From Bosea vaviloviae (GTDB taxonomy: Bacteria > Pseudomonadota > Alphaproteobacteria > Rhizobiales > Beijerinckiaceae): DNA of 64,000 nucleotides. How positions within the stretch are numbered: the stretch's first letter is position 1; each line of letters opens with the position of its first letter. The notes beneath the pieces were generated by a model. The model was not told the DNA's origin, did no database searches, and saw only the letters and a program-made list of their open reading frames with translations. The DNA lies in NCBI RefSeq assembly GCF_001741865.1, contig NZ_CP017148.1, positions 248,001-312,000 on the forward strand, read 5' to 3'. The translations under genes were made by a program, and so were the position numbers. Below are positions 24,316 through 50,044 of this stretch, piece by piece.

Positions 24316-24412
24316 TGTCGCTTTAACTTAACGATTTCAATGGATGAAAAGTTATGCTTTGTTTGGGCTTAGCAGCAGAGACGGCCTCGATTTATCGTTA
24401 CGGATTTCAATG
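24316..24412. repeat. Left transposon end with two transposase-site-like repeats
   Basis: The outer copy starts TGTCGCTTTAACTTAACG and continues ATTTCAAT (24316-24341). A second, looser copy (TCGTTACGGATTTCAATG, about 24395-24412) lies about 70 bp inward in the same orientation. This multi-site organisation is typical of ends bound by Mu-like DDE transposases. Confidence 0.7.
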
Positions 24413-26074
24413 TCCGCTCGATTGACAAATCGATTGCATGTTCGAAAACCGGCGCCCGCCGGCTCACACACTGATGAGTCATGGTTAACGGCGCGTCGTG
24501 TCGCCCGCGAACTGGACAAGATAATCGATGGTCAGGGACCGCGCCGGGTGGCAATTGAGCGTGTGGCCGCGGAGCTGCGCCTGACGACCCGCCAAGTCTA
24601 CAATCTGTTGGCACGGTATCGTATCGATCGGACGGTGACGTCGCTCCTGCGCGATGGTGACCGGACCCGGAAGAAACGTCTTCAGGAGGCCGTTGAGACA
24701 ATAATCGCGGCTACTCTCCGACAGCAGTGGCTGGTGCAGGAGGGGCCGCCGCTTGCACCTGTCGTCGACGAAATACGCGCCCGATGCGAGGAAGCCAATT
24801 TGGCCCCGCCATCCTATCCCACGATCGCCAGCCGCATTTTTGTGCTGTTCAGCCCTGAGGAGATCGCCAAGAAAAGATCCGCCAACCCGAAGCATCTCAA
24901 CCGGCTCAAGCCGCGGCCGGGATACATCCATGCGGCGCGACCGCTTGACGTCTGCCAGATCGATCACACACCGACCGACATCAATTTTGTCGAGGTCGTC
25001 GAGGGCGGCGGGGCCTTTGTCGGTCGGGCATTTCTCACGATTCTCATCGACGTAGCGACCCGCTGCATCGTGGGCTTCTGCCTCACGTTGGAGAAGCCGT
25101 CAGCATTGTCGGTCGCGCTCTGTCTCGCCCAGGCGATGTGTCCGAAAGACGGATGGTTGGCCGCGCGCGGCATTGACCATAGGTGGCCGATGTTCGGCCG
25201 ACCGCGACTGCTCGTCACAGATTCTGCCAAGGAGTTTAAAGGGCATGCCTTCAAGCGTGGATGCGAGGACTATGGCATTCGCATCCGCTATCGGGACCGA
25301 GGCCGCGTCCATCAAGGCGGCGTGGTCGAGAGGCTGCTTGGAAAGCTCAACGCCGTTCTCGCCACGCAGCCCGGCTCGACAGGCCGATCGGTGGCGGATC
25401 GCGATGAGTATCCCGCAGAACAGCGAGCTCGTCTCAGCTTTGCCGATCTAGAACAGTGCATCGCGCTCACCGTCATTGACCACAACCTTCACCAGAACGA
25501 GAAGACATTGAAGGTGCCAGCGGCCGAATGGGAGCGGCAGGCGCGGGATCTCCCACGCTTCGATGATGACCCTTCGCGCATTTTACTGGCATTCCTTCCG
25601 GGAAAGGCAAGGTGTCTATCGCAGCAAGGGATGAGGATGTTTGCACTGGAGTACTACTCTCCATGGCTAGGTGTCCTGGTTCCGCAGCGAGATCGGCTGG
25701 GCAAGCTCGATGTGCGATACGACCCTCGCGACATCAGCCATGTCTATGTGCGCGATCCTGATACGCGGGAGTTTCGGGCGGTCGAGCGACGCGATGGAAC
25801 GCTTGTGCCAATGACGTTGTGGGAACACAAAGCCGACCGCTTCCGTCGGCGCGCCGCGGGTGCCCGCACGGCTGTCGAGAAGGTGGCAATCCCCCGACGC
25901 ATCGCAGAAATCGCCGGCGGGCCAAAACCGTCGAGGGGCGAGTTGCGCAACGCCGTGCGCCGGACACTCGCGGCAGAAGCGGCCAAACCCTACGATGCCA
26001 TGCGCGAATCGCCGCCCGCGCCACCCGAGCATCCCGCCCGCCAGAAGCGCCGCCTGCCGGTCGAGGACTGGTGA
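24410..26074 (+). CDS. tniA: TniA-like DDE transposase
   Basis: 554 residues if the ATG at 24410 is used; an in-frame ATG at 24344 would place coding sequence inside the terminal repeats and is less likely. An N-terminal helix-turn-helix (VAAELRLTTRQVYNLLARYR) is followed by the rve catalytic core: LDVCQIDHTPTDINF (first Asp), PRLLVTDSAKEFKG (second Asp) and GGVVERLLGKLNAVL (Glu). A Mu-type C-terminal beta-barrel domain completes it. This is the strand-transfer enzyme, working with TniB and TniQ. The three genes are adjacent or overlapping (TniB ATG 2 bp after this stop). The catalytic triad appears intact. Confidence 0.9.
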   Translation: MSARLTNRLHVRKPAPAGSHTDESWLTARRVARELDKIIDGQGPRRVAIERVAAELRLTTRQVYNLLARYRIDRTVTSLLRDGDRTRKKRLQEAVETIIAATLRQQWLVQEGPPLAPVVDEIRARCEEANLAPPSYPTIASRIFVLFSPEEIAKKRSANPKHLNRLKPRPGYIHAARPLDVCQIDHTPTDINFVEVVEGGGAFVGRAFLTILIDVATRCIVGFCLTLEKPSALSVALCLAQAMCPKDGWLAARGIDHRWPMFGRPRLLVTDSAKEFKGHAFKRGCEDYGIRIRYRDRGRVHQGGVVERLLGKLNAVLATQPGSTGRSVADRDEYPAEQRARLSFADLEQCIALTVIDHNLHQNEKTLKVPAAEWERQARDLPRFDDDPSRILLAFLPGKARCLSQQGMRMFALEYYSPWLGVLVPQRDRLGKLDVRYDPRDISHVYVRDPDTREFRAVERRDGTLVPMTLWEHKADRFRRRAAGARTAVEKVAIPRRIAEIAGGPKPSRGELRNAVRRTLAAEAAKPYDAMRESPPAPPEHPARQKRRLPVEDW

Positions 26075-26075
26075 G

Positions 26076-26954
26076 ATGGCGGACCATCTGCTCGACCATG
26101 TTCGCCCGTATCTTCACTGCAACGTGGAGGAGCGGATCGCTTATATTCAAGCTTCGCGATGGATCGGGCATCAGGTTGCGATGCAGGCGCATAATCGTCT
26201 CGCCGAACTGCTAGCCCGACCGCCGGCGCTACGGACCCGAGGTCTAATGCTGGTCGGCCCCTATGCCAACGGCAAGACGATGATCGCGGAGCGTTTTGCC
26301 GTCGAGCACGTGAGGAACGCCGACCAGCAGCGGTTGTGGGTGGTACAAACCCGTGAAGGCGCCGGCCTCGCCCACTTCTACGAAAGTATCCTGCAGGCTT
26401 TCCGCGCTCCGATCGGCAACAGCCGAAGTGTTCGTCGCACGACGGCGCAAATCGATCATTTGCTGGACAGCATGAGGCCCAGGATCCTGATCTTCGACGA
26501 ATTCCACAATGCCTTGCGTGGCCGGACCCGGGATGTCGAGGCAGTCTTCGCATTTCTCCGGCGGATCGGCCGCCAGTTTGACATCTCCCCTGTTCTGATC
26601 GGCGAAGTCGCTGTCTATGACTTCATCAACCAGACCAGCGAGATGGCGAGCCGGTTCGAACTGCACGCGGTGCCACGGTGGCAGTATGATGAGGAGTTCC
26701 TGACGCTCCTTGACAGCCTCGAAGGCGCATTGCCGCTCGCACACGCCTCAGACCTCTCGGATGAGCCGTTGGCACGAAAGGTTTTCCAACTTTCCGAGGG
26801 CTTGATCGGAGAAATCATCGCGATTGTCTCGACAGCCGCGGCTGCCGCCGTCAGGTCGGGTGCGGAGCGGATCACGAAATCAGGAATCCAGAAGCTGCGC
26901 TACATCCCGCTCTCGGAGCGCCGCCGGGCAGCGATACGCTCCGAACTGCTATGA
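26076..26954 (+). CDS. tniB: TniB-like AAA+ ATPase, target-site regulator
   Basis: 292 residues from the ATG at 26076. Walker A is LMLVGPYANGKTMIAERF, Walker B is ILIFDEFHNALRG, and the sensor and arginine region follows. TniB/TnsC-type ATPases polymerise on DNA and license the transposase at targets. It starts 2 bp after tniA and overlaps tniQ by 4 bp (ATGA). Confidence 0.9.
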   Translation: MADHLLDHVRPYLHCNVEERIAYIQASRWIGHQVAMQAHNRLAELLARPPALRTRGLMLVGPYANGKTMIAERFAVEHVRNADQQRLWVVQTREGAGLAHFYESILQAFRAPIGNSRSVRRTTAQIDHLLDSMRPRILIFDEFHNALRGRTRDVEAVFAFLRRIGRQFDISPVLIGEVAVYDFINQTSEMASRFELHAVPRWQYDEEFLTLLDSLEGALPLAHASDLSDEPLARKVFQLSEGLIGEIIAIVSTAAAAAVRSGAERITKSGIQKLRYIPLSERRRAAIRSELL

Positions 26955-27958
26955 ACGGCCCGCGCTTCGCCATCGAGATACGCGAGCGATACGGCAACGT
27001 CGTCCGGGATCGGTGGCCCGTTTCAGTCGATCCGCTTCCGAACGAGGTGCTGTCGAGCTGGCTACACCGTCTTGCGCTTGCGAACGGGCTCGCGCCACGT
27101 TCGTTCGCCGACGTCCTTGGGCTGCGCCCGAGGATGTCGCCACGGCTGGAACTCCGGCTTCCGCGCCACGTCGCCGCTTTGCTCGCCCATCAGACTGGCG
27201 TTTCGCATAAATCGATCTCAGCGATGTCGATGACTGGAGACGCTTTGACGGCGCTGCTGCTGCCGTTGCGTGAGAACTCGGACAGAAACCGCTCGAGCTG
27301 GATGCAGTATTGCCCCCTGTGCCTCGCAGACGATGATGTGCCGTATTTTCGCCGGCACTGGCGGCTGGCATCGCGCATCTCCTGCTTCGAGCACGTTACC
27401 GGCCTTCGAGACCGCTGCCCGTCTTGCCGCAGCGGAATCGCATCCTTCAACCAAGGCGAACTGATCCCCCAACATTTCTGCGCACGATGCGGCTTTGACC
27501 TACGATCTGCCTCGAAGACGCAGATCAAAGCAGCGGCGCGTCGGCTAGAACGCTCGATCGAGGACATATGTCGGGTCGAACTGGCAAAGAGACCGGCGTC
27601 TGTCGGTGACCTGATTTCGCGCCTGCTAGGCGCGCCGGTTGCCGCCGATCTCACCTCGGCGAAGTCGCTCACAAACCTATCAGCCTCGATGCGAATTCGT
27701 TGTTTCGAGCGGCTCGCATCGGATCCTCATGATTGGCTGATAACCGACAAGGACGTTGGCGCCGCGTACTGGCGTCGCATGATACTGGCGGCGGGCGGCC
27801 ACCAAGAGTTGATCGCTCGCTTCGCAGACGCCCTAGAGAAGCAACAGGGCTCGCCACGACCGAAGCGCTCCCCGCCAGAGGGAGCTGATCTATCTTCGCT
27901 GCTCGAGGCTTACTGGCGCATGCACGCAGAAGGCCCGCGTCGTGGCAAAAACGGGTAG
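26951..27958 (+). CDS. tniQ: TniQ-family target-selection protein
   Basis: 335 residues. The N-terminus, LPNEVLSSWLHRLALANGLA, is the TniQ signature. Paired zinc knuckles follow (YCPLCLADDD with HWRLASRISCFEH, then CPSC and FCARCG). TniQ/TnsD proteins connect a DNA-bound target factor to the TniB-type ATPase. It overlaps tniB by 4 bp, ending the transposition operon. There is no CRISPR effector or TnsE nearby. Confidence 0.9.
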   Translation: MNGPRFAIEIRERYGNVVRDRWPVSVDPLPNEVLSSWLHRLALANGLAPRSFADVLGLRPRMSPRLELRLPRHVAALLAHQTGVSHKSISAMSMTGDALTALLLPLRENSDRNRSSWMQYCPLCLADDDVPYFRRHWRLASRISCFEHVTGLRDRCPSCRSGIASFNQGELIPQHFCARCGFDLRSASKTQIKAAARRLERSIEDICRVELAKRPASVGDLISRLLGAPVAADLTSAKSLTNLSASMRIRCFERLASDPHDWLITDKDVGAAYWRRMILAAGGHQELIARFADALEKQQGSPRPKRSPPEGADLSSLLEAYWRMHAEGPRRGKNG

Positions 27959-28009: not shown

Positions 28010-28435
28010 GGAAACCGCAATGGCCTCATCGTCGATGCCGAGCGGACGCAAGCCACGGGCTGGGCCGAACGCGCCGCCGCCGAGGCGATGATCGAGACCA
28101 CCGCGCCGACGGGGAGCGCGACGCTCGGGGCCGACAAGGCCTATTACACAGCCGCGCATGTGGCCGCCCTGCGCGCGCTGCGCGTCACGCCGCATGTGGT
28201 GCAAAATCAGACTAACCGCCGCTCCGCCATCGACGGCCGCACCACCCGACACCCCGGCTACGCCATCAGCCAGTGCATCCGCAAGCGCATCGAGGGGCCG
28301 TTCGGCTCGATGAAGGCCGCCGGAGGCTTCTGGCAAACAAAACATCGCGGACGCGAAAGAGTGCGGTGGATGTTCACCATCCGGGCCGCAGCCTATAACC
28401 TCATTCGACTTCCCTGTCTCTTGGCGACGATTTGA
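28010..28435 (+). pseudogene. IS5-family transposase, C-terminal remnant
   Basis: The frame from about 28010 reads GNRNGLIVDAERTQATGWAE, then GADKAYYTAAHVAALRALRV, NRRSAIDGRTTRHPGY, the catalytic-Glu region IRKRIEGPFGSMKAAGG and AAYNLIRLPCLL. These are the second Asp and Glu parts of IS5/ISL2-type DDE transposases. The N-terminal half is missing. It separates the tni operon from the cargo and may mark how the cargo was acquired. Confidence 0.75.
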
Positions 28436-28711: not shown

Positions 28712-29512
28712 ATGAGCCAAACTCTCGCCCAAACCAGCAATTATGATCCGGTCGCCCTGCATTACGACAGTACTCGGAATATGCCGCATCAGCTGCTCCA
28801 GTCCCTTTATCAACGGGCAGTTGCGGCGGGTATGCTATTACCCGGGACCAAAGTCCTAGATGCGGGCTGTGGAACAGCCCAGCTCTCTTTACCACTAATC
28901 GAAGAAGGGTACCAAGTGCTTGGGATAGATGTGTCCCAAAAAATGCTCGATATAGCACGCGAAAAAACCAAACAGCACCCCAACGCTGTATTTAAACTCC
29001 TCGACGTCCGACAGACGGGACTACCATCTGGCGAGTACTTCACGGTCGTCGTTTCGAAACTATTTCAGCATGTAGGCTCCTGGGAGAAGGCAGTCCAAGA
29101 GCTTGTCCGTGTAACCCAACATTCTGGCTACGTACTTCATATCAACGAAAAAGACGCTTTTAAAAACGCTGTCCGCAAGCAATTTTCGGCTCTATGCAAT
29201 GAGCGCGGCTACAAACGGCGCTATGTTGGAATTGACAATCGCGCCGAGTTGGCAGGTTCGTTTGAGTCCTGCGGTGCTATTTCAGTACCGTTTGATGCAT
29301 CTGGCCTTGCTTGGGAAAAGACCATTTCCTACGGGGAAGCGCTGACACATCTACGTTTGCGGCTCCACTCGGAATTTTGGATCGTTCCCGACAACATATA
29401 TGACGACCTCCTATCGCAAACAGAAGCGTGGGTTGACAATCATGCGGCTGGGAAGACCACCATCGAGCAGATGCGGCCATATCTCACCGTTGAGTCCTTT
29501 CGCGTCAGCTGA
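28712..29512 (+). CDS. Class I SAM-dependent methyltransferase
   Basis: 266 residues. Motif I is VLDAGCGTAQLSLPL (about 47-61), followed by the acidic strand VLGIDVSQKMLDIAR and FTVVVSKLFQHVGSW (motif IV region). This is a Methyltransf_11/25-type small-molecule enzyme; the substrate is unknown. Codon use is clearly more AT-rich than the tni and plasmid genes, which marks the start of the cargo. It stands about 55 bp before the next gene on the same strand. Confidence 0.8.
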   Translation: MSQTLAQTSNYDPVALHYDSTRNMPHQLLQSLYQRAVAAGMLLPGTKVLDAGCGTAQLSLPLIEEGYQVLGIDVSQKMLDIAREKTKQHPNAVFKLLDVRQTGLPSGEYFTVVVSKLFQHVGSWEKAVQELVRVTQHSGYVLHINEKDAFKNAVRKQFSALCNERGYKRRYVGIDNRAELAGSFESCGAISVPFDASGLAWEKTISYGEALTHLRLRLHSEFWIVPDNIYDDLLSQTEAWVDNHAAGKTTIEQMRPYLTVESFRVS

Positions 29513-29566
29513 TGCTTAAGTGCTTCCCATAGATCACCCCTGCGCCCTTCTCTGCGAGAGCGAACC

Positions 29567-30496
29567 GTGATTGTCCCCAAGCGCATTCTGGTTACCCCTG
29601 CCTCGCTTTGTGCTGATCGCGACCTACTATCCCCGCTCGCTGCTTTTCACTCCATCGAGTATTCCGCGCAGCATCTACCATCAGACCTCGATCGCTACTC
29701 AGCCCTAATACTGGGGAACGAAACATTCGACCGCGAGTCGTTCCGTGCTGCCCGGAACCTGCGTATAATAGTCCGATATGGCGTAACTTTTCACAATGTT
29801 GATCTGCGAGCCGCAGCAGATCACAACGTCGTTGTAACACACTGTCCACAGATAGCGACCACATCCGTAAGTGAGTATGTACTAGCCACTTCTTTGCTTA
29901 TGATCAAGCAGTTGAATCACGTAAATAAGCGACCTTCTCGTGAGTTGACGGAATTCAAATTTGCTGACTTTTCGAACAAATCGTTCGGAGTAATCGGACT
30001 TGGAAATATCGGGGAACGTGTTGCGCGTACCATGCAGGCACTCGGCTTACGGGTTCTTATCTATAATCGATCTGATAAATCTCCAACATGCGACAAATTA
30101 GGAGTCACGCAAACTACTTTAGAGCGCGTTCTGCAGTATTCAGATATAGTATCTGTGCATCTAACGCTAAACGACGAAACGCGCGGCTTGATGGGTCACG
30201 GGCAATTCAAACACATGCGCGCGGGCGCTCTTTTCATCAACACGTCCCAGGCAGGTCTCGTTGACCCAGCAGCCTTGGCAGTCGCACTCGAGTCAGGACA
30301 TTTGGGAGGCGTGGTCTCAGATTTCACCTACCCCGGATTCGATCTAGCAGCTTATCCCAATAGTTTCGTTACGCCACACATCTCGAGCCGTTCAATCCTC
30401 TCTACCACGCAGAAGGTTGCTTTGGTTGTCGACACAATTCGCGATTACTTCAATGGATCAAAGCCCCCACTGCCCAATCAAATAAATCCGGCGTGA
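29567..30496 (+). CDS. 2-hydroxyacid dehydrogenase-like protein, active site degenerate
   Basis: 309 residues with the D-isomer 2-hydroxyacid dehydrogenase fold. GVIGLGNIGERVARTMQALG is the NAD(P) loop, DIVSVHLTLNDETRGLMG is the mid-domain signature, and TPHISSRS carries the catalytic His. The usual N-x-S-R-G-x-x-V-D segment is here INTSQAGLVD, so the substrate-binding Arg is Gln. The acidic residue of the D-x-F-x-x-EP region is also missing (SDFTYPGFD). Either the substrate differs or the protein binds NAD without ordinary dehydrogenase chemistry. It sits in the cargo operon between the methyltransferase and phosphatase genes. Confidence 0.8.
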   Translation: MIVPKRILVTPASLCADRDLLSPLAAFHSIEYSAQHLPSDLDRYSALILGNETFDRESFRAARNLRIIVRYGVTFHNVDLRAAADHNVVVTHCPQIATTSVSEYVLATSLLMIKQLNHVNKRPSRELTEFKFADFSNKSFGVIGLGNIGERVARTMQALGLRVLIYNRSDKSPTCDKLGVTQTTLERVLQYSDIVSVHLTLNDETRGLMGHGQFKHMRAGALFINTSQAGLVDPAALAVALESGHLGGVVSDFTYPGFDLAAYPNSFVTPHISSRSILSTTQKVALVVDTIRDYFNGSKPPLPNQINPA

Positions 30497-30505
30497 GCGG
30501 AACAG

Positions 30506-31126
30506 ATGTCGGAGTGCCTACATACGTCACCTATAGTCATCATGGCCCGCCACGGCCAAACCGCAAACGCAGGTCACAACTGGGGACTCCTAGAGGTTCC
30601 GCTCAGCACTGCGGGCATCGCAACTGCCGAACAAATGCGCTTAAGACTGCTACCGTATTGTGCTGTGCGCATATACTGCAGTCCGCAGCAGAGAGCTAAA
30701 GATACCGCGACCATCATATCGGGTCGCAATATACCCGTCGAAATAGATAGCCGCCTTTCGGCGAAAGATTACGGTATCTATAATGGAGAAACAAAGCAGG
30801 TAGTGCGCAATATTCGGGGGCCTCATTTGAGTGACGAAGATCTATGGCGATGGACTCCTCCCGGCGGAGAGAGCTACATAACTGTGGGGCGCCGTATATT
30901 GTCCTTCCTGCGCGCGCTCATTGACCTCCCGCCCGGTGTTGTCATCGCGGTTACACACGAAGGCCTTTTGAAGGTATTCTCCTCCCTGATCGCGCAGGAT
31001 CAGGGGCACATCCGTCTCGGATACGACTATGGCCACACGATTATAGCCTCGATAACAAATTCCGCGCTCACCTCCAGCGAGGCGTTCCTCGACGCACTCT
31101 TTGAACGCTCAACACCATCGACTTAA
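30506..31126 (+). CDS. Histidine phosphatase superfamily protein
   Basis: 206 residues. IVIMARHGQTANAG is the RHG motif with the nucleophilic His, SPQQRAKDTATII carries the second conserved Arg, and AVTHEGLLKV carries the second His. This resembles phosphoglycerate-mutase-like or CobC-like phosphatases of small molecules. It starts 9 bp after the dehydrogenase-like gene. In a locus with a kinase-like and a nucleotidyltransferase gene it may remove a phosphate introduced during biosynthesis (inference). Confidence 0.85.
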   Translation: MSECLHTSPIVIMARHGQTANAGHNWGLLEVPLSTAGIATAEQMRLRLLPYCAVRIYCSPQQRAKDTATIISGRNIPVEIDSRLSAKDYGIYNGETKQVVRNIRGPHLSDEDLWRWTPPGGESYITVGRRILSFLRALIDLPPGVVIAVTHEGLLKVFSSLIAQDQGHIRLGYDYGHTIIASITNSALTSSEAFLDALFERSTPST

Positions 31127-31171
31127 ACTCAAGCATACTGCTTCGCTGTACTGACCAAGAAGGACACAATA

Positions 31172-32284
31172 ATGAGCGCTAAGAACGGAGAACGTATCTG
31201 TATTGCCTACGGCGGTGGCTACGTCATCGTCAACGGAGCGACTTCTTCTGTGTGCGAGTTATTAGCATCAGAACTCGGCGGATTCTTCACAATCGGCGCA
31301 GAACTCCCTCACGAAGGGAACCTCGTAGGTGAAGTCACATTCCATCATGACCCCGCAGCCAGGGACGATATCGAGAAGACGTTCCGACGGTCAAAGGGGG
31401 TTCCACTAGTCATGCATGCGCCTTCGGATCCGAAACACCGACGATATGGTATCAAAATTGAGGCGCCGTCGAGCACATATGTTATCCGAACCACAAAGGC
31501 CGGGACGTTCAAATACGATCGGGAGACTGCAAAGATTGCCGTCTATCACGCTGATGAAATCGACGGTGGAAAGGAGTTGAGGCGAGTCATAAGGGACCAG
31601 CTTTTTGTTCCCTGGCTGGAGCAGCAAGGATACTTCGCCATCCATAGCGCTGCCTTTGCAAATACATTGGGAGATGGAACCCTCGTTGTCGGCCAAGGTG
31701 GAAGCGGTAAAACGACGTTCTTCGTCTCGGCACTCGCACAGCGATCTTATCGAATGCTCTCTACCGACCGCACCTTAGTCAAGTTAACCGACGAGGGGAT
31801 CCTGGCCTTGGGAGTTCCGGAGGCGGTGAATTTTCTGCCCGGAACGCTCGCACAGTTCCCAGAGCTTCGGGACTTATCTGAGAGTTCACCTGCTGAACGC
31901 TTCTGGGCGAGGAACTCGAAATTCCATGTGCCGTGGCGGCTTCTCTACGGGCGCTTCGCGGCCCAGCCCTCCCACAGTAAGGTCCTGCTTAAGAGGATCG
32001 TCTTCCCTGAGTACGGGGCACAATGGGAATGTCGCACCCTTAGCCCTGCGGAGACGCGCGAGAAACTTGAAGAAGAGTTACTCACAGCAGACCGCGACCT
32101 CCCCGTCCCAAACTGGATGGAAATCTACAAGCAAAGAGATACGTCAGCGGAAACCCTGCTGGAGTCAATGAGCCATGTCCATGCGGAGGCGGTGCGCTGG
32201 AATGGGGTCTCCGAAATCTCCCGCTACCTAGCGCACGCAACTCGACCTGAAAGAGAATCTGTAATGCCTTTGGGACCGCGATGA
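31172..32284 (+). CDS. HPr-kinase-like P-loop protein
   Basis: 370 residues. The C-terminal half has LVVGQGGSGKTTFFVSALAQ (Walker A, about 170-188) and SYRMLSTDRTLVKL (HprK-like Walker B/second motif). The N-terminal 140 residues are unrecognised. HprK-like proteins of this kind accompany peptide-tailoring loci; for example, lasso peptide kinases phosphorylate the C-terminal residue of their precursor. No precursor, B or C protein is seen here, so the substrate is open. The stop overlaps the MFS start (ATGA), tying export to this step. Confidence 0.7.
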   Translation: MSAKNGERICIAYGGGYVIVNGATSSVCELLASELGGFFTIGAELPHEGNLVGEVTFHHDPAARDDIEKTFRRSKGVPLVMHAPSDPKHRRYGIKIEAPSSTYVIRTTKAGTFKYDRETAKIAVYHADEIDGGKELRRVIRDQLFVPWLEQQGYFAIHSAAFANTLGDGTLVVGQGGSGKTTFFVSALAQRSYRMLSTDRTLVKLTDEGILALGVPEAVNFLPGTLAQFPELRDLSESSPAERFWARNSKFHVPWRLLYGRFAAQPSHSKVLLKRIVFPEYGAQWECRTLSPAETREKLEEELLTADRDLPVPNWMEIYKQRDTSAETLLESMSHVHAEAVRWNGVSEISRYLAHATRPERESVMPLGPR

Positions 32285-33531
32285 CGAACACAGATCACGA
32301 GACAATCACTACAAATGGGTTGTCAGCGGTACTGGAGCTCGTTGCGCTGCCTAAGTTCTTGCTTTACATTTTGGGGAATACGATTTCGCTCACAGGAAGC
32401 TCCATACAGCGGATCGCCATTCTATGGTTTCTCTGGAATGAAGCGAAGTCAACGGCGGTTCTAGGGCTATTTGCGCTCCTAAGCTTCGGTCCGTCAATGA
32501 TTACCTTATTATATGGCGGACTACTCGCAGACACTGTCGACCAAATGCGAATTATTACTTGGTCTAAAGCCGTTCTCACTATCCAGGCCCTTGTACTCGT
32601 GATTGCCGTACCATTTGACATGCTCTCGATAAATTTGGTCCTTGCGCTGGCCGTAGTCCAAAGTTTGATATACGGAATCAACCAACCCTCGAATTTGGCG
32701 TTTATCAGCAACTCGGTTCCTCGTCGGCTCCTCGGCCAGGCGTTAACACTAAATACCGTCGGATCATATGTCGCACGCGTCAGTGGCCCTCTTCTGGGTG
32801 GGTGGATTCTGAGTACGCACGGGCTCCAGATGGCGTTCGTTGTGAACTTCCTCAGTTATCTTCCGTTATTCGCAGCTATTGCCATCGTCGGCTCGATTAC
32901 CTCTTCCTCAACCCATGTGGACAAGCAAAGCAGCCACCAGCGGATCGCAGGAGGATTTCAAATTGCCGTAGGGAGAAGAGATATTGCGGTGACGCTGACT
33001 GCCTACCTCGCAACCGCAGTAACCATTCGCTCATACGCAGACTTCCTGCCCGCAATCGTAGATGGATCCTCGACGGACCACGCACTGTTCCTCGGGTATC
33101 TGAACGCCGCGATCGCCGTTGGTGCCTTGCTAGGAACACTGCCTACGGTATACACGGCTACTAATTACGCTCGTTACGTTCTTCTGATAGCCTCTAACAT
33201 CACATTGGCATGTGCGGTAGTTTTTCTTTTTTATCCTACTCCCTTCCCAGTAAGGCTCTTACTGGCACTGGTCGCCGGAATGTCAACGGTTATCGGAGGG
33301 GTTGGCGCACAGACTATCCTCGCCTCGCTGGCTGAGGACTCCTCACGTGGTCGGGTTCTTAGCATCTATACGCTGATCTTCCGAGGAGGGCCTGCTGCCA
33401 GCGGAGCTTTCATCGGTGTCGTCGCGGCTAAGTATGGAATGGCATCCACGTTTGCTGCCGCGTCCGTACTTTGCGGGCTGGTCAGCGCGGTCGCGTGGAG
33501 AGAGCGTCAGCAGCTGAGGGTCGGCCAATGA
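32281..33531 (+). CDS. MFS exporter, EntS-like (MFS_3)
   Basis: 416 residues with about 11-12 hydrophobic helices. IAILWFLWNEAKSTAVLGL and LYGGLLADTVDQMRI are the typical loop between helices 2 and 3, and SGPLLGGWIL lies near helix 6. It resembles the enterobactin-exporter branch, which secretes natural products. It is coupled to the HprK-like gene by a 4-bp overlap. It implies that the locus makes a small molecule or modified peptide that leaves the cell, or confers self-protection. Confidence 0.8.
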   Translation: MTNTDHETITTNGLSAVLELVALPKFLLYILGNTISLTGSSIQRIAILWFLWNEAKSTAVLGLFALLSFGPSMITLLYGGLLADTVDQMRIITWSKAVLTIQALVLVIAVPFDMLSINLVLALAVVQSLIYGINQPSNLAFISNSVPRRLLGQALTLNTVGSYVARVSGPLLGGWILSTHGLQMAFVVNFLSYLPLFAAIAIVGSITSSSTHVDKQSSHQRIAGGFQIAVGRRDIAVTLTAYLATAVTIRSYADFLPAIVDGSSTDHALFLGYLNAAIAVGALLGTLPTVYTATNYARYVLLIASNITLACAVVFLFYPTPFPVRLLLALVAGMSTVIGGVGAQTILASLAEDSSRGRVLSIYTLIFRGGPAASGAFIGVVAAKYGMASTFAAASVLCGLVSAVAWRERQQLRVGQ

Positions 33532-33613
33532 GCGTCCGATATGCAGGTCACCTTGAGCAGTGTTCCATCCATCCTAAAGTGAGAGCTCGAGGCTATCATT
33601 TGAATAGGTTGTC

Positions 33614-35170
33614 ATGACTGAGCGCGGAGCCACAGAATTCCTACTTTGGATTGCTCGCTCTGGCGAGGAAGGGGCACATATCGGTTGGCGTGACCTCGAT
33701 GATGCTAGGCTTTTCGAGTTAGCAAAAAAGCATCGCGTTGTCGGGCGTGCGCTAGCTTGCCTGCAACGAGAGGACGCGCACCGGCGACACGCGTCCCTGG
33801 TTGAGCTTCTTAGCGAGGAGTTCGTCCGGATTAAAACAGCCGCTCGCTTACAGAGCGAGGTGACCGAGTCGTTCTTGTCGGTGGCCCGCCAAGCAGGCGG
33901 GCAGTTCGTACTGATCAAGGGAAATACCGTATTCGATCTTTTGGGTGGAGAGTTTCGTCTGCGAAAGACAAGCGATATCGATATGATTTCCAGTAAGCCT
34001 GACGCATTGCACAGCCACTTGCTCGATCTCGGGTACGTGCACTCCTGGAAGGCCTCAAGTCATGAGGAGATAAATATACGATATCAAGGCACATTAGTTG
34101 ACGTGCACAAGTATTTTCCACTCTTTCGTATGACGCGAGGCGAGCGGGCCATTCCTGCTCCAATCAACTCGCAGGCCTTCGGGCTTAATCTCCGTACCAA
34201 CAATCTGGAGCTTGTCGCGCTGGGCGTCGATGAAATCATAGAGGGCTCGATATACATCCCTCACATCGACGGCCATCCAATTCTTCGGCCGGCACCCGCG
34301 CTTGCCGCGTTCATCACGGCAATGCATTTGTATGGCGACTTCGTGCGAGCGTATCCCGCGCTGATGCGGTTTCGACCCTTGGTGCGCTTGTTTGAACTCT
34401 TGGAATTAGACGAACTTATCGGGCACGTTGACTTTGATCCTGTCAAGTTTCGCGTTTATGTGGATTCCCATGGGGTCCGAAACGAAATGGTGCAAGTCGC
34501 CAGAATTATGGCTCAAGTGACGGGGAACCGTAGGCTGTTCGAATTACTGGGAGCGCCGTACTACAATGGAAACGAATACGAATTATTCGTCGCCTTTGGC
34601 TTCTCTGTCAGCCGAGAATATGACGTCACCGACCTCTTAATTAGACCTCTCGGGTTATGTGGACTATTAAGCGGCGAGGCGATTGAAACGCTGGTGTTCG
34701 AGGATCGCAGTGTCACGCCACTTGTTGGTGGGAACTCCGCAGTGAAGCCTACATACTGGGGCGAAAAGAATTTTCCTGCAATCATTTCTGTATGCCGACA
34801 GGAGCGTATGCTAGAATTTACTATCGAATACCTGGAATCCCAACTGCCATCTCCATATATTTCTATCACCCTGGGGCAGGATTATTACAGAATATTCCCT
34901 GAATGTCGTGGGAGGGAGACTTCTACTATGGTGAATAGCGCGCACGAAATACAGGCCATGGAGGTGTGTTTGGGGGCTCTAATGCAGAAAGTGCGCGTCT
35001 GCATAGAGGCGGGTATGGGGCACCGCGGCGAGGAGATGCTCGACGCGACGTTGACTCTCGGAAATGTCTCAGGCGCCACGATGGATCTGGGTCTCTTTGT
35101 TCCGTATCGGTGTGTCCTGCCACCTCAATTCGACCAGCAGGGCACGCCCAGGCGTTCCGCCTTGCCGTAG
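33614..35170 (+). CDS. NTP_transf_5-type nucleotidyltransferase
   Basis: 518 residues. FVLIKGNTVFDLLGGEFRLR followed by KTSDIDMIS gives the KG...D...R...SDID pattern of NTP_transf_5 nucleotidyltransferases, with a third acidic residue in GTLVDVHKYF. The C-terminal 250 residues are unrecognised and rich in beta-strand predictions. Such enzymes add nucleotidyl groups to peptides or polysaccharide intermediates. Like its neighbours it is AT-rich. Coexistence with an HprK-like protein resembles tailoring pairs in some peptide loci, but this combination is not one I can name. Confidence 0.7.
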   Translation: MTERGATEFLLWIARSGEEGAHIGWRDLDDARLFELAKKHRVVGRALACLQREDAHRRHASLVELLSEEFVRIKTAARLQSEVTESFLSVARQAGGQFVLIKGNTVFDLLGGEFRLRKTSDIDMISSKPDALHSHLLDLGYVHSWKASSHEEINIRYQGTLVDVHKYFPLFRMTRGERAIPAPINSQAFGLNLRTNNLELVALGVDEIIEGSIYIPHIDGHPILRPAPALAAFITAMHLYGDFVRAYPALMRFRPLVRLFELLELDELIGHVDFDPVKFRVYVDSHGVRNEMVQVARIMAQVTGNRRLFELLGAPYYNGNEYELFVAFGFSVSREYDVTDLLIRPLGLCGLLSGEAIETLVFEDRSVTPLVGGNSAVKPTYWGEKNFPAIISVCRQERMLEFTIEYLESQLPSPYISITLGQDYYRIFPECRGRETSTMVNSAHEIQAMEVCLGALMQKVRVCIEAGMGHRGEEMLDATLTLGNVSGATMDLGLFVPYRCVLPPQFDQQGTPRRSALP

Positions 35171-35189
35171 TTCAAAGGAACTTAGCGCA

Positions 35190-36197
35190 ATGATAATACA
35201 TTTGCCCTGGCTTATCTTTCTCGGCGATGCACGGGATCAGATTGCTGCAAAGACGGGATTTGCGATAGCGCACTGGCAGCGTGAACGCTGCGTCGGACAA
35301 ATGCGCTTTGAGAACTGCCGGGCGGACTGTGGGCTTGCTGACGTAGGGCTAGAGCAAGCTGCTGCAGCAGGCACAAAGACTATGGTTCTTGGGGTTGCCA
35401 TAGGCGGCGGAGAAATTCCCAAGTCTTGGGAACCCGTCATCATTAGGGCGATGGAACTGGGCATGGACATCGCGAATGGGTTGCACACAAGACTGGCGTC
35501 GTCGCCAGCAATTGCAGAAGCCGCCGCCCGGTACGGGCGTCGGCTATTCGATGTACGACATCCGACTCAAACGTTTGCGCTTGCGACTGGCAAGCCCCGG
35601 TCTGGAAAACGAGTTCTTACGGTTGGCACAGACGCGTCGGTCGGTAAAATGCTTGCGGCTCTGCACATAGCCCGCGGGCTGCAAGCATGTGGAAGAGATG
35701 CGCGTTTCAGGGCGACCGGGCAAACGGGAATTCTTGTTTCCGGAGAGGGAGTCGCAATCGACGCAGTTCCAGGCGATTTCATTGCTGGTGCCATCGAATG
35801 GTTGTCGCCTGCAATTCCGGAAGGAAGCTGGGACGTAATAGAGGGGCAGGGCTCGCTCTTCCATCCTGCGTATGCAGGGGTTACTCTGGGTCTCTTGCAT
35901 GGAGCGCGGCCGGATTTTCTTGTGATGTGTCACGATCCGGCTCGTGCGCATATGCGTGGCCTTCCTAACTATCCGGTTCCTGATCTTAAGGCCTGCTTCG
36001 ATGTGCATCTGAATGGAGCCCGTTTAACCAACCCCGAAGTCAAACCAGCTGGCATATGCTTGAATACGTCGAGTCTTAGCCGTGCCGAAGCGAACATTAT
36101 GAGGGATAAATTCGAGCGGGAATTCGATCTTCCCACGTGTGATCCGCTCATTACCGGTGTCGGTCCCATTGTTGATCGAATGCTGCGCGGACTGTGA
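35190..36197 (+). CDS. DUF1611 / DgcN-like protein
   Basis: 335 residues from the ATG at 35190 (AAGGAAC upstream; the open frame begins earlier but overlaps the previous gene). LIFLGDARDQIAAKTGFAIA opens the protein, LTVGTDASVGKMLAALHIA is the P-loop-like motif, RATGQTGILVSGEGVAIDAV follows, and IEGQGSLFHPAYAGVTLGLL is the family hallmark. DUF1611 members include DgcN of a D-glutamate catabolic pathway. Here no DgcA partner is present, so a role on a related acidic D-amino acid or N-acyl step is only a suggestion. Confidence 0.8.
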   Translation: MIIHLPWLIFLGDARDQIAAKTGFAIAHWQRERCVGQMRFENCRADCGLADVGLEQAAAAGTKTMVLGVAIGGGEIPKSWEPVIIRAMELGMDIANGLHTRLASSPAIAEAAARYGRRLFDVRHPTQTFALATGKPRSGKRVLTVGTDASVGKMLAALHIARGLQACGRDARFRATGQTGILVSGEGVAIDAVPGDFIAGAIEWLSPAIPEGSWDVIEGQGSLFHPAYAGVTLGLLHGARPDFLVMCHDPARAHMRGLPNYPVPDLKACFDVHLNGARLTNPEVKPAGICLNTSSLSRAEANIMRDKFEREFDLPTCDPLITGVGPIVDRMLRGL

Positions 36198-36210
36198 GCA
36201 ACAGGGAAAA

Positions 36211-36981
36211 ATGTCCAAGCGAGAGAGAAAAAAGTGGCCGGGCTCCGAAAGCGCGCTTCGGAGGGATACTGGTAAGATTGTCACGGATGATGGAGAACTC
36301 AGCTTTGTCGCATATGGCCCTGATCGAGCAGGGAACAAGCCACCAATTTTACTCTATATGGATTCTGTGGGGATCCGCCCTGGTCTGGAGGAATTTAGTC
36401 GTAGACTCGCCAGGGCCGGACATTGGGTAATTTTGCCAGATCTCTACTACCGAACAGGGCCGATAGAGATTGACGCAAGGTATCCGGCTAAGTCTTCTGC
36501 TGAGATTCAGCGCCATACGAGCGCGCTAACGGAAGGGGCAATTCTGTCTGACACACAACGGATATTGGCCGCGATGACGGAGTTCGGCGGGCGAGCGATC
36601 GGCAGATGGATTACGATGGGCTTCTGCATGGGGGGGCGTTTCGCGGTTTGGGCGGCCGGTCAATATTCTGGGCAAGTTGCGGCATGCGTGTCCGTCATAG
36701 GCACTTCATTGGTTAGAGAGACTGGTGAATCGCCGGTGGACCGGCTGTTTTCGGAGAATATTCCGAGCCTATTTGTGTTTGCTGGCGCTGATGAGTATAT
36801 CAAACCCGCGTCGGTAGCTGCGATAGAGGAGAGGGTCCGCCGCGCAAAGAACGGATCTCAGGTGAAGGTGTGCCCAAGCGTGGGGCATGGGTTTATTTTT
36901 CCTGATCGGCACAATTATGACGAAGCAGAATCAGAGCACGCTTGGGAGTTTATAGAAGAATTTCTAAGAGGGGTACATTAA
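36211..36981 (+). CDS. Dienelactone hydrolase family alpha/beta hydrolase
   Basis: 256 residues from the ATG at 36211. MGFCMGGRFAVWAAGQY contains the G-x-C-x-G nucleophile elbow with Cys (as in dienelactone hydrolases), FVFAGADEYIKP supplies the Asp, and SVGHGFIFPDR supplies the His. It is the last gene of the AT-rich rightward run; after its stop the sequence returns to degenerate high-GC debris. The substrate is probably a lactone or ester of the locus product. Confidence 0.8.
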   Translation: MSKRERKKWPGSESALRRDTGKIVTDDGELSFVAYGPDRAGNKPPILLYMDSVGIRPGLEEFSRRLARAGHWVILPDLYYRTGPIEIDARYPAKSSAEIQRHTSALTEGAILSDTQRILAAMTEFGGRAIGRWITMGFCMGGRFAVWAAGQYSGQVAACVSVIGTSLVRETGESPVDRLFSENIPSLFVFAGADEYIKPASVAAIEERVRRAKNGSQVKVCPSVGHGFIFPDRHNYDEAESEHAWEFIEEFLRGVH

Positions 36982-37718
36982 CTCTACGTCATTCGGCGTG
37001 CGAGGCTGACTCTGACCCATTTCCGCTGCTGCGTGACGAGCTGGCGTGGCGCTCACGGCTGGAGCAGCTTATGGCGGGCCGGTTCGGTTTTGCATCCCTG
37101 ATCTCGCCTGGGCTGGCGGTGGACGGCGTCGACGACAGCGAAGGCGCGCTGGTCGTGACCGCCCGCAGCAGTGCCCTTCCAGATGCAATAACAAATGCAA
37201 TCTGCGCCAGCCCGGACCGCCGCACTATCTACGTACCGACATTTATGAATGAGATTTATGCGTTCGAACGGACCGCATAGTGAACTGCCTCGGGTTTGTC
37301 GGAGGCCGTTCAGTTTGAGGCCGGCCGCCATGGCTCGGCTGGCGCAGAGAGAGCCCGACGACGAGTGGGTTGAGTTACCACTCGCTTTCCGGCCACCCGA
37401 TTTTCGAGTGCGCGGGAACAAGGCCGGTGCGATTGGCGACCTGCCGTCCGACGTGATCGTGCAAGGCTCGTAAGCATGCGCCGGAGGCCGCCTTGTGGAT
37501 GGGCATTTGGGCGTCCAGCTTTTCGCGTTCGTAATCCGGCAGCAGTGCCGGCAGCGGTGCCAGCCACTCGATGGAAATGTCGAATGACAAGCCAGCAAAA
37601 CCTCCGAGTACGTGCCGTTGGCTGTTCACTGCTAACCGTCGCTTAAATTGCCCACCACGATCGAATTTAGACACTATAATGCCTAGGGACGATATGCACA
37701 GTCCGCTTCGTTCAGTCC
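36982..37718. other. Degenerate stretch with possible ISL3-like fragment
   Basis: After the cargo there is about 740 bp without an intact gene. On the plus strand around 37050-37175 the reading MAGRFGFASLISPGLAVDGV followed by DDSEGALVVTARSS resembles the N-terminus of ISL3-family transposases but then loses sense. Reverse-strand frames across 37300-37670 show no family I recognise. I read this as transposon junk at the cargo border. Confidence 0.35.
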
Positions 37719-37925
37719 ATGGACGTTCGGCGGATCATGGCAAAAAACGTGCGGAAATTCCGCACGGCGGCACAGCTTTCTCAGGAGGAAGTCGCAACCC
37801 GCATGGGAGTTGAACAGACCTATGTGAGTGGTCTCGCACGCGGCGTGCGTAACCCGACGATCACCACGTTAGACCGTGCCGCAAAAGCGCTTAATGTCGA
37901 TATCGTCGAGCTCTTGAAGGAATAG
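37719..37925 (+). CDS. Small XRE-family regulator
   Basis: 68 residues, almost entirely one helix-turn-helix: FRTAAQLSQEEVATRMGVEQ followed by TYVSGLARGVRNPTITTLDR and a C-terminal LNVDIVELLKE. It matches short XRE proteins of rhizobia. No partner toxin is adjacent. It could regulate the divergently placed ScpB/DUF1403 operon end or the cargo, but no operator is evident. Confidence 0.7.
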   Translation: MDVRRIMAKNVRKFRTAAQLSQEEVATRMGVEQTYVSGLARGVRNPTITTLDRAAKALNVDIVELLKE

Positions 37926-37975: not shown

Positions 37976-38659
37976 CTAGACCGCGTCTTCGTCCTCGGAC
38001 GGCGACGTTTCGGAGTCCGAACCAAAAATCGACATCGGAAGGTCGCCAGCTAGCAATCGGTCTTTGCTGAGTAACCCAGCATCCTCGAGCTTTTCGAAAT
38101 CCGGCAGATCCCGCAGGGTCTCGAATCCGAACTGCGACAGGAATTCTTGCGTCGTCACGTAGCTATAGGGCGCGCCCGGCTGCGGGCTCCGTGGTCCGGC
38201 GGCGATGAAACCGCGCTTGCGGAGATGCCCGATAGTGTCGCGGCTGATCTCCTTGCCGAACACTTGGCCGAGTTCGGCGCGGGTGATCGGCTGAAAATAG
38301 CCGATGCACAACAGCACCAGGCTCTCCGTCTGTGACAACGCCTTGCTATCGGATTCGCCGAGCCCGGTGGCCCTCCGGATCGCGACAGCGAACCCCTTCT
38401 TGGTCCGATGCTGCCAGCCGCCGGCAACGGAAACGAGCTCGTAGGGTCTTTCGCGCAATTCATCGCGGATATCGTCAATCAGGAGATCGAGGCTGCAATC
38501 GCGGCCGACGACCCGGGCGAGCGTTTCACGGCCGACCGGCTCCGGCGAGGCAAAGATCACGGCCTCGACGCGCCCCATCCATTCGCGCCAGCGCATCTCC
38601 GGCGGCAGGTCCGCGAGCTCCACGTCGAACAGCTCTTCAGTCGGGGTCTGCCGCACCAT
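37976..38659 (-). CDS. ScpB-like condensin-subunit homologue (accessory)
   Basis: 227 residues with the two winged-helix arrangement of ScpB: WMGRVEAVIFASPEPVGRET, ELVSVAGGWQHRTKKGFAVA and LSQTESLVLLCIGYFQPITR, then LGQVFGKEISRDTIGHLRKR. Chromosomal ScpB works with SMC and ScpA; neither is here. It follows the DUF1403 gene with a 2-bp gap, and both face away from a tyrosine recombinase. Mobile-element ScpB homologues probably serve recombination or transposon control rather than chromosome segregation (inference). Confidence 0.8.
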   Translation of the reverse strand: MVRQTPTEELFDVELADLPPEMRWREWMGRVEAVIFASPEPVGRETLARVVGRDCSLDLLIDDIRDELRERPYELVSVAGGWQHRTKKGFAVAIRRATGLGESDSKALSQTESLVLLCIGYFQPITRAELGQVFGKEISRDTIGHLRKRGFIAAGPRSPQPGAPYSYVTTQEFLSQFGFETLRDLPDFEKLEDAGLLSKDRLLAGDLPMSIFGSDSETSPSEDEDAV

Positions 38660-38661: not shown

Positions 38662-39633
38662 TCAGAGCCCATAAAGCCGAAAGCTGGCGCGCCCCGACAA
38701 TTCCCGCACCGCCTCAAGAGCGGTCAGGCGTTCGAACAATCGTCGTGAACCCCACCGCGTCAGGTTTTTCGTCTGCAGCGTGCCGGACACACAATCCTCG
38801 TCGAGCAGAAGCTGGATCACCTCCCCTGCTCCTTTAGCGCGCAGCTTCCGCGTGGCTGCATTGAGGCGGGCCGCTCGCGGTGCCATCTCCCCGGCGCTCC
38901 GACAGGCGTCCGTTGCCGCCAACGCGAGCGCCACGCAGATCGCACGTTCAAACCCCTCTCCTCCCGGACGGTCGCGGCCCCGATCACTCAGGCTGCGGAA
39001 GGCAGGCCCGGGCGCCTGCGTCACCAGCAGGGGCACGGCCACCGGCCAGCGCATCCGCGCCGCGATAGCGAGGTCTGCGATCCACCAGCCGAGCAGGCCT
39101 GCATCGGGCCGCAGCCGGTAGGCCTCGGTCGCGATCGCCGCAGCGACCAAAGGCGCTGGCTGGCCAGAGCCGGCTAGGACTTCAAACTGCTCCCCCAGCG
39201 AGACGAGGCTGTCACTCCAGCGCAGGCCAAGCAGATTCGCCACTCTGCGCAAACGGTCAGGAGAGACGATGGGCGAGCGCTCGGCCAAGCCTTTCCAAGC
39301 GGCAAGCAGGTTGCCGGCAGGGCCCGGATCGGCTCCCGGCGCACGCAGGTACCAGGCGTCGCGCAACTGCGCTTCGCTCTCGGTCCGACCGGTCAGCGCG
39401 GCCGCTGCGGCCGCGCCTTTCAGCGCGAGTCGCTGCCGCCAGCTTCCAGCCCAAGCGGGAGCCATTCGAACGAGATTATCCAATGAGTTCAATGCCGATC
39501 CCGCCAGGAACGCGGCCTCGACATCGCTTGTCACGAGCCCATGCGGAACCGCCCAGGCTGGCACGGTCGGGGGCGCAGAGGCGACACTGGCGGTCGGGTC
39601 GGATGCGGGCATTGTGGGGAAAGGACGCTGCAA
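38662..39633 (-). CDS. DUF1403 family protein
   Basis: 323 residues, alanine-rich and helical: TSDVEAAFLAGSALNSLDNL, WRQRLALKGAAAAAALTGR and LRRVANLLGLRWSDSL. This matches DUF1403, a family of rhizobial plasmids and elements found beside ScpB-like and integrase genes. The function is unknown. Its start lies about 60 bp from the palindrome at 39692-39720, so the promoter of this leftward pair and the rightward integrase share the interval. Confidence 0.75.
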   Translation of the reverse strand: MQRPFPTMPASDPTASVASAPPTVPAWAVPHGLVTSDVEAAFLAGSALNSLDNLVRMAPAWAGSWRQRLALKGAAAAAALTGRTESEAQLRDAWYLRAPGADPGPAGNLLAAWKGLAERSPIVSPDRLRRVANLLGLRWSDSLVSLGEQFEVLAGSGQPAPLVAAAIATEAYRLRPDAGLLGWWIADLAIAARMRWPVAVPLLVTQAPGPAFRSLSDRGRDRPGGEGFERAICVALALAATDACRSAGEMAPRAARLNAATRKLRAKGAGEVIQLLLDEDCVSGTLQTKNLTRWGSRRLFERLTALEAVRELSGRASFRLYGL

Positions 39634-40911: not shown

Positions 40912-40989
40912 ATTTTACCTTAGCGTTTCAATTTTCCTGCAAGAATTTTAGCTTAGCGTTTCAATTGAAATCGTTAAGTGAAAGCGACA
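40912..40989. repeat. Right transposon end with repeated sites
   Basis: Two 22-bp direct repeats, ATTTTA(C/G)CTTAGCGTT followed by TCAATT, lie at 40912-40933 and 40945-40966. The outer inverted terminal copy (ATTGAAATCGTTAAGTG, then AAAGCGACA) follows at 40964-40989. The outermost copy pairs with the left end at 24316-24341. The inner pair is in the opposite orientation to the terminus. Confidence 0.75.
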
Positions 40990-45506: not shown

Positions 45507-45574
45507 GATCCTTGCCTCGTTCAGGGCAAAGAAATCCTGCTCGCCGAAACGGCGCTAAATCTCTCACGAGACTC

Positions 45575-45603: not shown

Positions 45604-45609
45604 CTCAGT

Positions 45610-45658: not shown

Positions 45659-45701
45659 TCTTTGCTTCAAACGCTCCTTTTCTGTGTCGAAAATACTCGG
45701 T

Positions 45702-50036: not shown

Positions 50037-50044
50037 CGAGACCA

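Follow-up and report, generated by a model that had tools for sequence, protein, structure and literature searches.

Agrocin 84, a plant-protecting antibiotic encoded by the agn cluster of plasmid pAgK84, carries a phosphoramidate-linked glucose that is needed for its import, and AccA recognizes the pyranose-2-phosphate motif of this glucose, according to the portions of the reports available to us (PMC4526662, PMC6429109). In pseudomycoidin biosynthesis, the available part of PMC8498205 describes a kinase that phosphorylates a serine and a nucleotidyltransferase that then adds one or two hexoses. The linear polyphosphorylated peptides (LPP), reported in 2026, come with HprK-like and nucleoside triphosphate (NTP) transferase genes in the excerpts of PMC13381572. 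Here we compare with these systems an eight-gene run at positions 28712-36981 of a 64,000-nucleotide stretch (the window) of Bosea vaviloviae contig NZ_CP017148.1, which forms the cargo of a tniABQ transposon and encodes an HprK-like protein, an NTP_transf_5 protein and a major facilitator superfamily (MFS) exporter. The cargo is a real and mobile biosynthetic operon, probably acquired horizontally, that has not been described before. Sequence comparison links it, through its NTP_transf_5 enzyme and its type of kinase, to genes of agrocin 84, and the gene set itself appears to be new.

The eight-gene cargo operon

An earlier note on this DNA had described a rightward, AT-richer run of eight unassigned genes with mostly short spacing and one ATGA overlap, and this description was borne out. 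All eight open reading frames (ORFs) of the ORF list were present and intact, pointed rightward and lay in one run. The intergenic gaps were, in order, 54, 9, 45, -4, 82, 19 and 13 nt, the negative value being the ATGA overlap of the HprK-like and MFS genes. The per-kb GC content was 0.51-0.58 over 29-37 kb, as opposed to 0.61-0.66 at 24-28 and 38-46 kb, although the lower GC was not unique to the cargo, since the window was mostly 0.55-0.61 at 0-12 kb and 46-51 kb. The GC content by codon position was alike across the eight genes. The cargo genes, together with one short frame among them, are as follows.

28712-29512, + strand: class I S-adenosylmethionine (SAM) methyltransferase (PF13649/PF08241)
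29567-30496, + strand: D-2-hydroxyacid-dehydrogenase paralogue with a GTG start (PF02826/PF00389)
30506-31126, + strand: histidine phosphatase paralogue (PF00300)
31172-32284, + strand: HprK-like kinase with intact Walker A (weak NCBIfam hits and pairwise relatives)
32281-33531, + strand: MFS_3 exporter (PF05977, 109.9 bits), 4-nt overlap with the kinase gene
33528-33617, + strand: 29-codon ORF, probably not a gene, filling the gap with an ATGA overlap at each end
33614-35170, + strand: long AgnF-type NTP_transf_5 protein, 518 aa (PF14907, 46.9 bits, cut-off 31.2)
35190-36197, + strand: DgcN-family N-acetyltransferase (NF041892, 470.4 bits, cut-off 480)
36211-36981, + strand: dienelactone-hydrolase-type (DLH) alpha/beta hydrolase (PF01738)

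Seven of the family calls made earlier passed Pfam cut-offs (methyltransferase, 2-Hacid_dh, His_Phos_1, MFS_3, NTP_transf_5, DUF1611_N/C and DLH), whereas the HprK-like call passed no curated one. The exporter had been called EntS-like, which held at the superfamily level only (70.5 bits, cut-off 324). Two gene starts were corrected. The DgcN start was moved from 35064 to 35190 because the DgcN model aligns only from residue 48 of the longer ORF onwards, and the DLH start at 36211 is, on our reading of the ORF, better placed than that at 36139. No RNA element reached the gathering score. Promoter-like sites numbered 8 against a shuffle mean of 6.7, and terminator-like sites 11 against 8.3.

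The NTP_transf_5 protein and the AgnF branch

By profile scores and trees, the NTP_transf_5 protein of the window groups with AgnF, apart from the canonical members of the family. A profile built from four relatives, with the window sequence excluded, scored it at 126 bits, and a canonical alphaproteobacterial profile at 32 bits. For the trees, the first 60 rows listed were sampled at intervals of two or three rows, with sequences shorter than 480 aa. In a 32-row tree, the proteins of the window, the Ti plasmid pTiL-11, genome G1102, locus L018 and AgnF of pAgK84 lay on one side with a support of 100/99. A 27-row tree to which Pantoea and Streptomyces members had been added again gave the AgnF grouping 100/99, and the seven grouped rows were the window, AgnF, pTiL-11, Pantoea, Streptomyces (L174), an alphaproteobacterial metagenome-assembled genome (MAG; L018) and G1102. 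The sister of the window protein was the pTiL-11 protein in both trees (96/86 and 98/93). D121 and D123 of the DxD motif, which we take to be metal-binding, were invariant in a three-row alignment.

A tblastn search of 72,556 plasmid records with the NTP_transf_5 protein matched seven, five of them from Agrobacterium (25.9% over residues 28-446, E 1e-29). The closest relative found was the pTiL-11 protein, with 26% over 433 aa, and the identity to AgnF was only about 21%. In the family-level genome search one of 297 other genomes, G1102, was matched (28%, E 1.5e-23), and in the phylum-level search one of 298 (E 6e-4). A profile scan of genome contigs confirmed one locus, L111, which is on the same contig as L018. 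Word-based searches of 5.8 billion proteins recovered nothing beyond the NTP_transf_5 and HprK-like proteins of the window themselves, and a two-row NTP_transf_5 profile run against the protein database returned only the window's own protein; a viral scan confirmed nothing. The relatives from the family-level genome search and the plasmid tblastn ruled out an orphan verdict, and the empty protein searches thus reflect a limit of word-based searching, not absence.

AgnE1 and the HprK-like protein

AgnE1 of the agrocin 84 cluster (L171 4793-5716), annotated as hypothetical, is HprK-like by profile comparison. It scored 68 bits with an HprK-like profile that did not contain it, whereas no score above 20.8 was reached by any of 82 uncalled Walker-A ORFs. 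A search with AgnE1 alone matched 22 of 4712 ORFs, all 22 of which were within the 53 called HprK-like. No title or abstract opening in the agrocin 84 and HPr kinase literature we covered, which mostly excludes subscription journals, describes the link that the NTP_transf_5 enzyme and the kinase type of the cargo make to the agrocin 84 genes.

The window HprK-like protein retained an intact Walker A, whose columns were invariant in the HprK-like alignment, and had pairwise relatives in L010 (3e-10), L011 (2e-9), L013 (8e-8) and L156 (7.8e-14). A class-level genome search matched 7 of 288 other genomes, with a best E of 9e-7. FomB was its second-best NCBIfam match, and the L018 homologue was FomB-like with a score (207 bits) that falls short of the cut-off (400). 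A single-protein HprK scan of genome contigs confirmed nothing; a genome search with many short P-loop-stretch matches hit 203 of 397 genomes, and ten of these places were followed.

A gene-neighbourhood check, suggested earlier, showed that HprK-like and NTP_transf_5 genes co-occur in related loci. The two profiles used for it contain the window sequence, and the window's own scores with them are therefore not evidence. In four of the seven AgnF-type loci (the window, L018, L174 and pAgK84), a single gene separated an HprK-like gene from the AgnF-type gene, and an HprK-like gene shared a stretch with canonical NTP_transf_5 in 30 of the 59 stretches L052-L110. These had been fetched for NTP_transf_5, and three (L083, L109 and L110) showed no NTP_transf_5 match at threshold. 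A larger co-occurrence figure, 35/61, includes five otherwise chosen loci (L011, L013, L014, L018 and L020).

Some other arrangements of HprK-like genes were observed. One 733-codon frame at L088 6981-9182 matched both the HprK-like and the NTP_transf_5 profiles and is a possible fusion. L010 5707-10933, on pTi_CFBP4442, contains sulfatase-like, GTP cyclohydrolase II, HprK-like, MFS and phospholipase D (PLD)-like genes, with the kinase and MFS genes arranged as in the window. An HprK-like gene adjoins a histidine phosphatase gene at L151-L154, which come from four genomes belonging to one genus. L152, the only one of these compared with NCBIfam, matched HprK_rel_B and GAK ATP-grasp and is a GAK-type locus. 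The adjacency of phosphatase and kinase in the GAK system resembles the cargo, but the sequences are distant, and it is a parallel only.

Comparison of AgnF-type loci

The agrocin 84 cluster resembles the cargo in several respects. AgnF groups with the window NTP_transf_5 protein, AgnE1 is HprK-like, and both loci are on alphaproteobacterial plasmids and encode SAM methyltransferase and efflux transporter proteins. In pAgK84, AgnE1 is accompanied by the AgnG efflux transporter, methyltransferases and a resistant leucyl-tRNA synthetase. The window methyltransferase showed 50% identity over 58 aa to AgnC3, in a stretch common to many methyltransferases. However, the cargo lacks the resistant aminoacyl-tRNA synthetase, AgnA, the phosphoenolpyruvate (PEP)-type enzymes, the radical SAM protein and the dioxygenase of agrocin 84, and its MFS_3 exporter showed no match to AgnG. 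Since no aminoacyl-tRNA synthetase or nucleoside-building gene is present, the cargo is not an agrocin 84 cluster.

A transporter gene was adjacent or next but one to the AgnF-type gene in the window, pTiL-11, Pantoea and pAgK84. The pTiL-11 locus has the closest NTP_transf_5 gene followed by an annotated MFS gene, but its partners are of a nucleotide type (purE, a phosphoribosyltransferase, a lysyltransferase-like gene and, by our reading, a thymidylate-kinase-like gene), and of six genes compared only NTP_transf_5 matched a window protein. The Pantoea locus encodes a PEP-binding protein, an aminotransferase, a phosphatase-family protein, an LLM oxidoreductase and an annotated arabinose transporter. 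L018 1264-11933, from the MAG, and L174 7507-15183, from a Streptomyces plasmid, share a cluster of an aminotransferase, Gfo/Idh, a TylF-like protein, NTP_transf_5, an unknown protein of 517-519 aa, a FomB-like kinase and a cytidylyltransferase. The AT-rich G1102 stretch (L167 13459-17215, L169 626-3382) contains three consecutive ORFs, two matching nitroreductase, a P-loop protein, an arginyl-tRNA synthetase gene, a protein weakly like nucleoside diphosphate kinase (below cut-off) and a 53-aa ORF behind a GGAGG site. Its AgnF-type gene seems split between frames, and some genes we take by eye to be transposase genes. This stretch looks like another antibiotic locus.

The other cargo enzymes and core chemistry

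Alignments to solved structures showed Gln at the position of an Arg of the homologues in the dehydrogenase paralogue, in which the Glu motif is absent and the His is kept; we presume these to be the active-site residues. In the phosphatase paralogue, Ala occupies the acid-Glu position in an alignment to 1ebb/1h2e, and this Glu is presumably the general acid. The altered positions point to changed chemistry or decay.

The DgcN protein showed 55.9% identity to annotated dgcN and was the only DgcN match in the genome. In all three plasmid dgcN loci inspected, a neighbour was annotated as dgcA or dipeptide epimerase. The DgcN-DgcA D-glutamate pathway thus has DgcN in common with the cargo (56%), but a DgcA query, run without a positive control, found no match in the window genome, and the cargo neighbours are unrelated. 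A conserved DgcN without a DgcA match argues against plain D-glutamate catabolism, and DgcN hints at N-acetyl-D-glutamate chemistry.

A phosphonate cluster with a FomB-like kinase was also considered, but a search of the genome for its PEP mutase gave three matches, none over the cut-off (best 119.6 of 319.55 bits), with no positive control, since 6 of 14 controls matched and none passed the cut-off. In Halomonas, homologues of the MFS protein and the 2-hydroxyacid dehydrogenase lie close together, but we presume the surrounding genes to be catabolic and transport genes, and this lead was dropped. An anti-phage function was also rejected: the PADLOC Mad2 match of the methyltransferase (56.9 bits) was taken as general methyltransferase similarity, and the Csx16 match of the MFS protein was weak. 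Structure predictions from two-row alignments had mean pLDDT values of 36.5 and 30.4.

Proposed product and alternatives

We are about half persuaded that the operon makes a small molecule carrying a phosphate-linked sugar, or a nucleotidyl group, which is exported by the MFS protein. The available parts of the pseudomycoidin, LPP and agrocin 84 papers lead us to infer an order of kinase, sugar transfer onto the phosphate and export, on the assumption that the pseudomycoidin nucleotidyltransferase is an NTP_transf_5 protein. We likewise infer a small-molecule product and an antibiotic role. The operon would make a small, non-ribosomal core molecule, to which the HprK-like kinase would add a phosphoryl group. 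The AgnF-type enzyme would then attach a sugar or nucleotidyl group to the phosphate, and the MFS_3 protein would export the product. Assembly or modification of the core, for which N-acetyl-D-glutamate is a possible starting point, would fall to the methyltransferase, the altered dehydrogenase and phosphatase paralogues, DgcN and DLH. The phosphate-linked sugar might, as the analogy with agrocin 84 suggests, serve the importers of competitors as a handle for uptake. A bolder version is that the product is a Trojan-horse antimetabolite on an N-acylated D-glutamate-type core, and that the HprK/AgnF pair is a portable phosphate-sugar-handle module also behind the agrocin 84 handle and the lasso phosphoglycosyl group; we think this improbable. 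If the proposed order holds, the NTP_transf_5 family and AgnE1/AgnF would gain a common testable job, kinase first and sugar onto phosphate second, and the AgnF branch could be used to search plasmids for antibiotics tagged with a phosphate-linked sugar. The branch already leads to loci in Ti plasmids, Pantoea, Streptomyces and other alphaproteobacteria.

Several observations weigh against this proposal. The HprK-like call was below every curated cut-off (HprK_rel_B 26.8 of 200 bits, FomB 23.6 of 400). The branch of AgnF is long in the trees, and AgnF, Pantoea, pTiL-11 and G1102, four of the seven rows that group together in the 27-row tree, have an unusual composition, so that positions within the AgnF group are unsure. 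The tree rows had, moreover, been gathered by a similarity search with the AgnF-type group, and the G1102 row was without its N-terminus. Three of the seven AgnF-type loci had no nearby HprK-profile match within 6 genes of pTiL-11, 11 of Pantoea and 40 kb of G1102, where one weak match was about 15 kb away. In a heterologous host, deletion of the LPP NTP transferase left detectable products unchanged, according to the excerpts of PMC13381572. The parts of the agrocin 84 literature examined do not describe the reaction of AgnF or the agn enzyme that installs the glucose. Both altered paralogues, that of the dehydrogenase and that of the phosphatase, may be degenerate, and the DgcA result comes from the search without a positive control. 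Finally, no locus with the whole eight-gene set was found in the genome and plasmid searches, and co-operation of the eight genes therefore rests on synteny. The earlier remark that no described pathway has this gene set holds within the searches made, with the qualification that parts of it are tied to characterized products, AgnF and AgnE1 in the agrocin 84 cluster and the kinase and nucleotidyltransferase pair in some lasso peptides.

The operon could instead make a linear phosphorylated or glycosylated ribosomal peptide, LPP- or paeninodin-like, in which a short peptide, perhaps encoded by the 29-aa ORF, is phosphorylated on Ser by the kinase and NTP_transf_5 adds a sugar. The pseudomycoidin/paeninodin lasso loci have in common with the window the pair of an HprK homologue and a nucleotidyltransferase (for pseudomycoidin, the available part of PMC8498205), in agreement with the earlier remark that such proteins are tailoring enzymes in some peptide loci. 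An HprK-like kinase and an NTP transferase without a macrolactam synthetase also belong to the core of the LPP systems of Bacillota, which are ribosomally synthesized and post-translationally modified peptides (RiPPs) and likewise have an exporter, in the excerpts of PMC13381572. The 29-aa ORF is attractive, as its last residue is Ser, it bridges the MFS and NTP_transf_5 genes with an ATGA overlap on either side and it has GAGGG upstream, and the G1102 relative lies close to its 53-aa ORF and two nitroreductase-family genes. However, ranked by codon score the 29-aa ORF stood at percentile 0.4 among in-frame segments and at percentile 38 among out-of-frame ones, such a gap-filling ORF arises in 7% of shuffled gaps, and it is probably not a gene. 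At E <= 0.001, PqqD (PF05402) matched nothing in the genome, with 3 of 14 controls positive and with a divergent RiPP recognition element (RRE) able to escape; Transglut_core3 (lasso B2) gave none at the same threshold, with 2 of 14 controls positive. Among the eight cargo proteins there was no leader peptidase and no macrolactam synthetase, the latter not having been searched for genome-wide. Compared with the lasso loci, the window has neither a B2 match in its genome nor a synthetase or convincing precursor in the cargo. The LPP systems differ from the window by a PqqD-type RRE, an SpI peptidase, an MsbA-like transporter, in place of which the cargo has an MFS protein, and a convincing precursor, as far as the excerpts describe them. 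In addition, DgcN and the dehydrogenase paralogue would fit a small molecule better. A peptide product is unlikely in our view. The secreted, tailored metabolite or peptide proposed earlier is thus retained as a metabolite, which best fits the kinase-like, nucleotidyltransferase and export genes and the AgnF grouping, and is not supported in its peptide version.

A self-resistance or detoxification cassette, in which a toxin taken up by the cell would be altered by the HprK-like (FomB-like) kinase together with DgcN and expelled by the MFS protein, without any synthesis, seems quite unlikely. MFS pumps are often resistance proteins, and the FomB matches of the window kinase and its L018 homologue fit such a role, but the score of the window kinase is marginal (23.6 bits), eight genes including a methyltransferase, a dehydrogenase-like and a phosphatase-like protein and NTP_transf_5 would be too many, and the AgnF branch has a member in a biosynthetic plasmid cluster. 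We seriously doubt that unrelated, partly decaying genes with no shared pathway were collected by chance in the transposon slot. The full set was found in no other locus, an insertion sequence (IS) remnant lies upstream and catalytic positions are altered in two proteins; against this stand eight intact ORFs on the same strand with short spacings and one ATGA overlap, a similar codon-position GC and the combination of HprK-like, NTP_transf_5 and exporter genes also seen in related loci. We would scarcely expect a surface glycan or phospholipid tailoring operon with no exported metabolite. Genes that we read by eye as glycosyltransferase-like surround the canonical NTP_transf_5 and HprK-like genes of L013 and L020, but no glycosyltransferase, flippase or polymerase is among the eight proteins, and the window NTP_transf_5 is on another branch than the canonical ones.

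The carrier transposon and plasmid

The cargo occupies the slot that tniQ and scpB delimit in a 16.7-kb transposon, which belongs to the tni transposons by the presence of both tniABQ and terminal inverted repeats. Its other features are as follows.

24316-24344, + strand: left terminal inverted repeat, 29 bp, 93% pairing with 40961-40989
24344-26074, + strand: TniA, Mu-type transposase (similarity to Mesorhizobium plasmid genes)
25860-26954, + strand: TniB ATPase, start uncertain, overlapping tniA as called (TniB annotation of matched plasmids)
26951-27958, + strand: TniQ (PF06527, 81.7 bits)
28088-28435, + strand: IS5-type transposase remnant upstream of the cargo, C-terminal part only (NF033581, 67.6 of 140 bits)
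36942-37280, + strand: ORF downstream of the cargo (ORF list only), possible IS remnant
37719-37925, + strand: helix-turn-helix regulator between cargo and scpB (PF01381)
37976-38659, - strand: ScpB-family protein, right edge of the cargo slot (PF04079)
38662-39633, - strand: DUF1403 protein (PF07183, 355 bits)
39742-40854, + strand: tyrosine recombinase of the element (PF00589); annotated recombinases follow DUF1403 in L119 and L120
40961-40989, - strand: right terminal inverted repeat, 29 bp, pairing with 24316-24344

With up to 3 mismatches allowed, the two copies of the terminal repeat were the only ones in the 6.7-Mb genome, and the chance expectation for such a pair in the window was 0. 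On inspection, no 5-bp direct repeat that would be a target-site duplication was found at the element ends. Seven plasmid records matched tniABQ, and three of them, all Mesorhizobium, did so with at least 80% query cover and 76-77% identity; the matched tniA is annotated as 'Mu transposase C-terminal domain-containing'. Four of the seven plasmids were inspected (L118-L121). These rhizobial tniABQ-scpB-DUF1403-recombinase loci have the same backbone as the window element but differ in the slot. In L119 and L120, tniQ is directly followed by scpB and DUF1403, with a recombinase farther on, and the slot is therefore empty, whereas L118 has a DUF5623 gene and IS66 genes after tniQ and L121 has another gene set. 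Terminal repeats like those of the window, with 3-6 mismatches in 26, were found in L118 and L119. At L118 20235-23888 (Mesorhizobium), the scpB region is apparently split by IS66-type genes, and stretches of the window scpB match both sides.

The window also encodes repC, repB, a ParA/RepA-type protein, a LuxR-type autoinducer regulator and type IV secretion genes at 44277-61444. The rep and type IV secretion genes identify the contig, 339,755 bases long in the protein-database record, as a conjugation-type repABC plasmid. A further stretch at 4901-19485 resembles a defence island, with an AbiEi-like regulator (4901-5977), a HamB-like DEAD helicase (6437-10063), a PD-(D/E)XK protein (12221-15160), a GajB-like UvrD helicase (15118-18324) and a ThiF protein (18586-19485).

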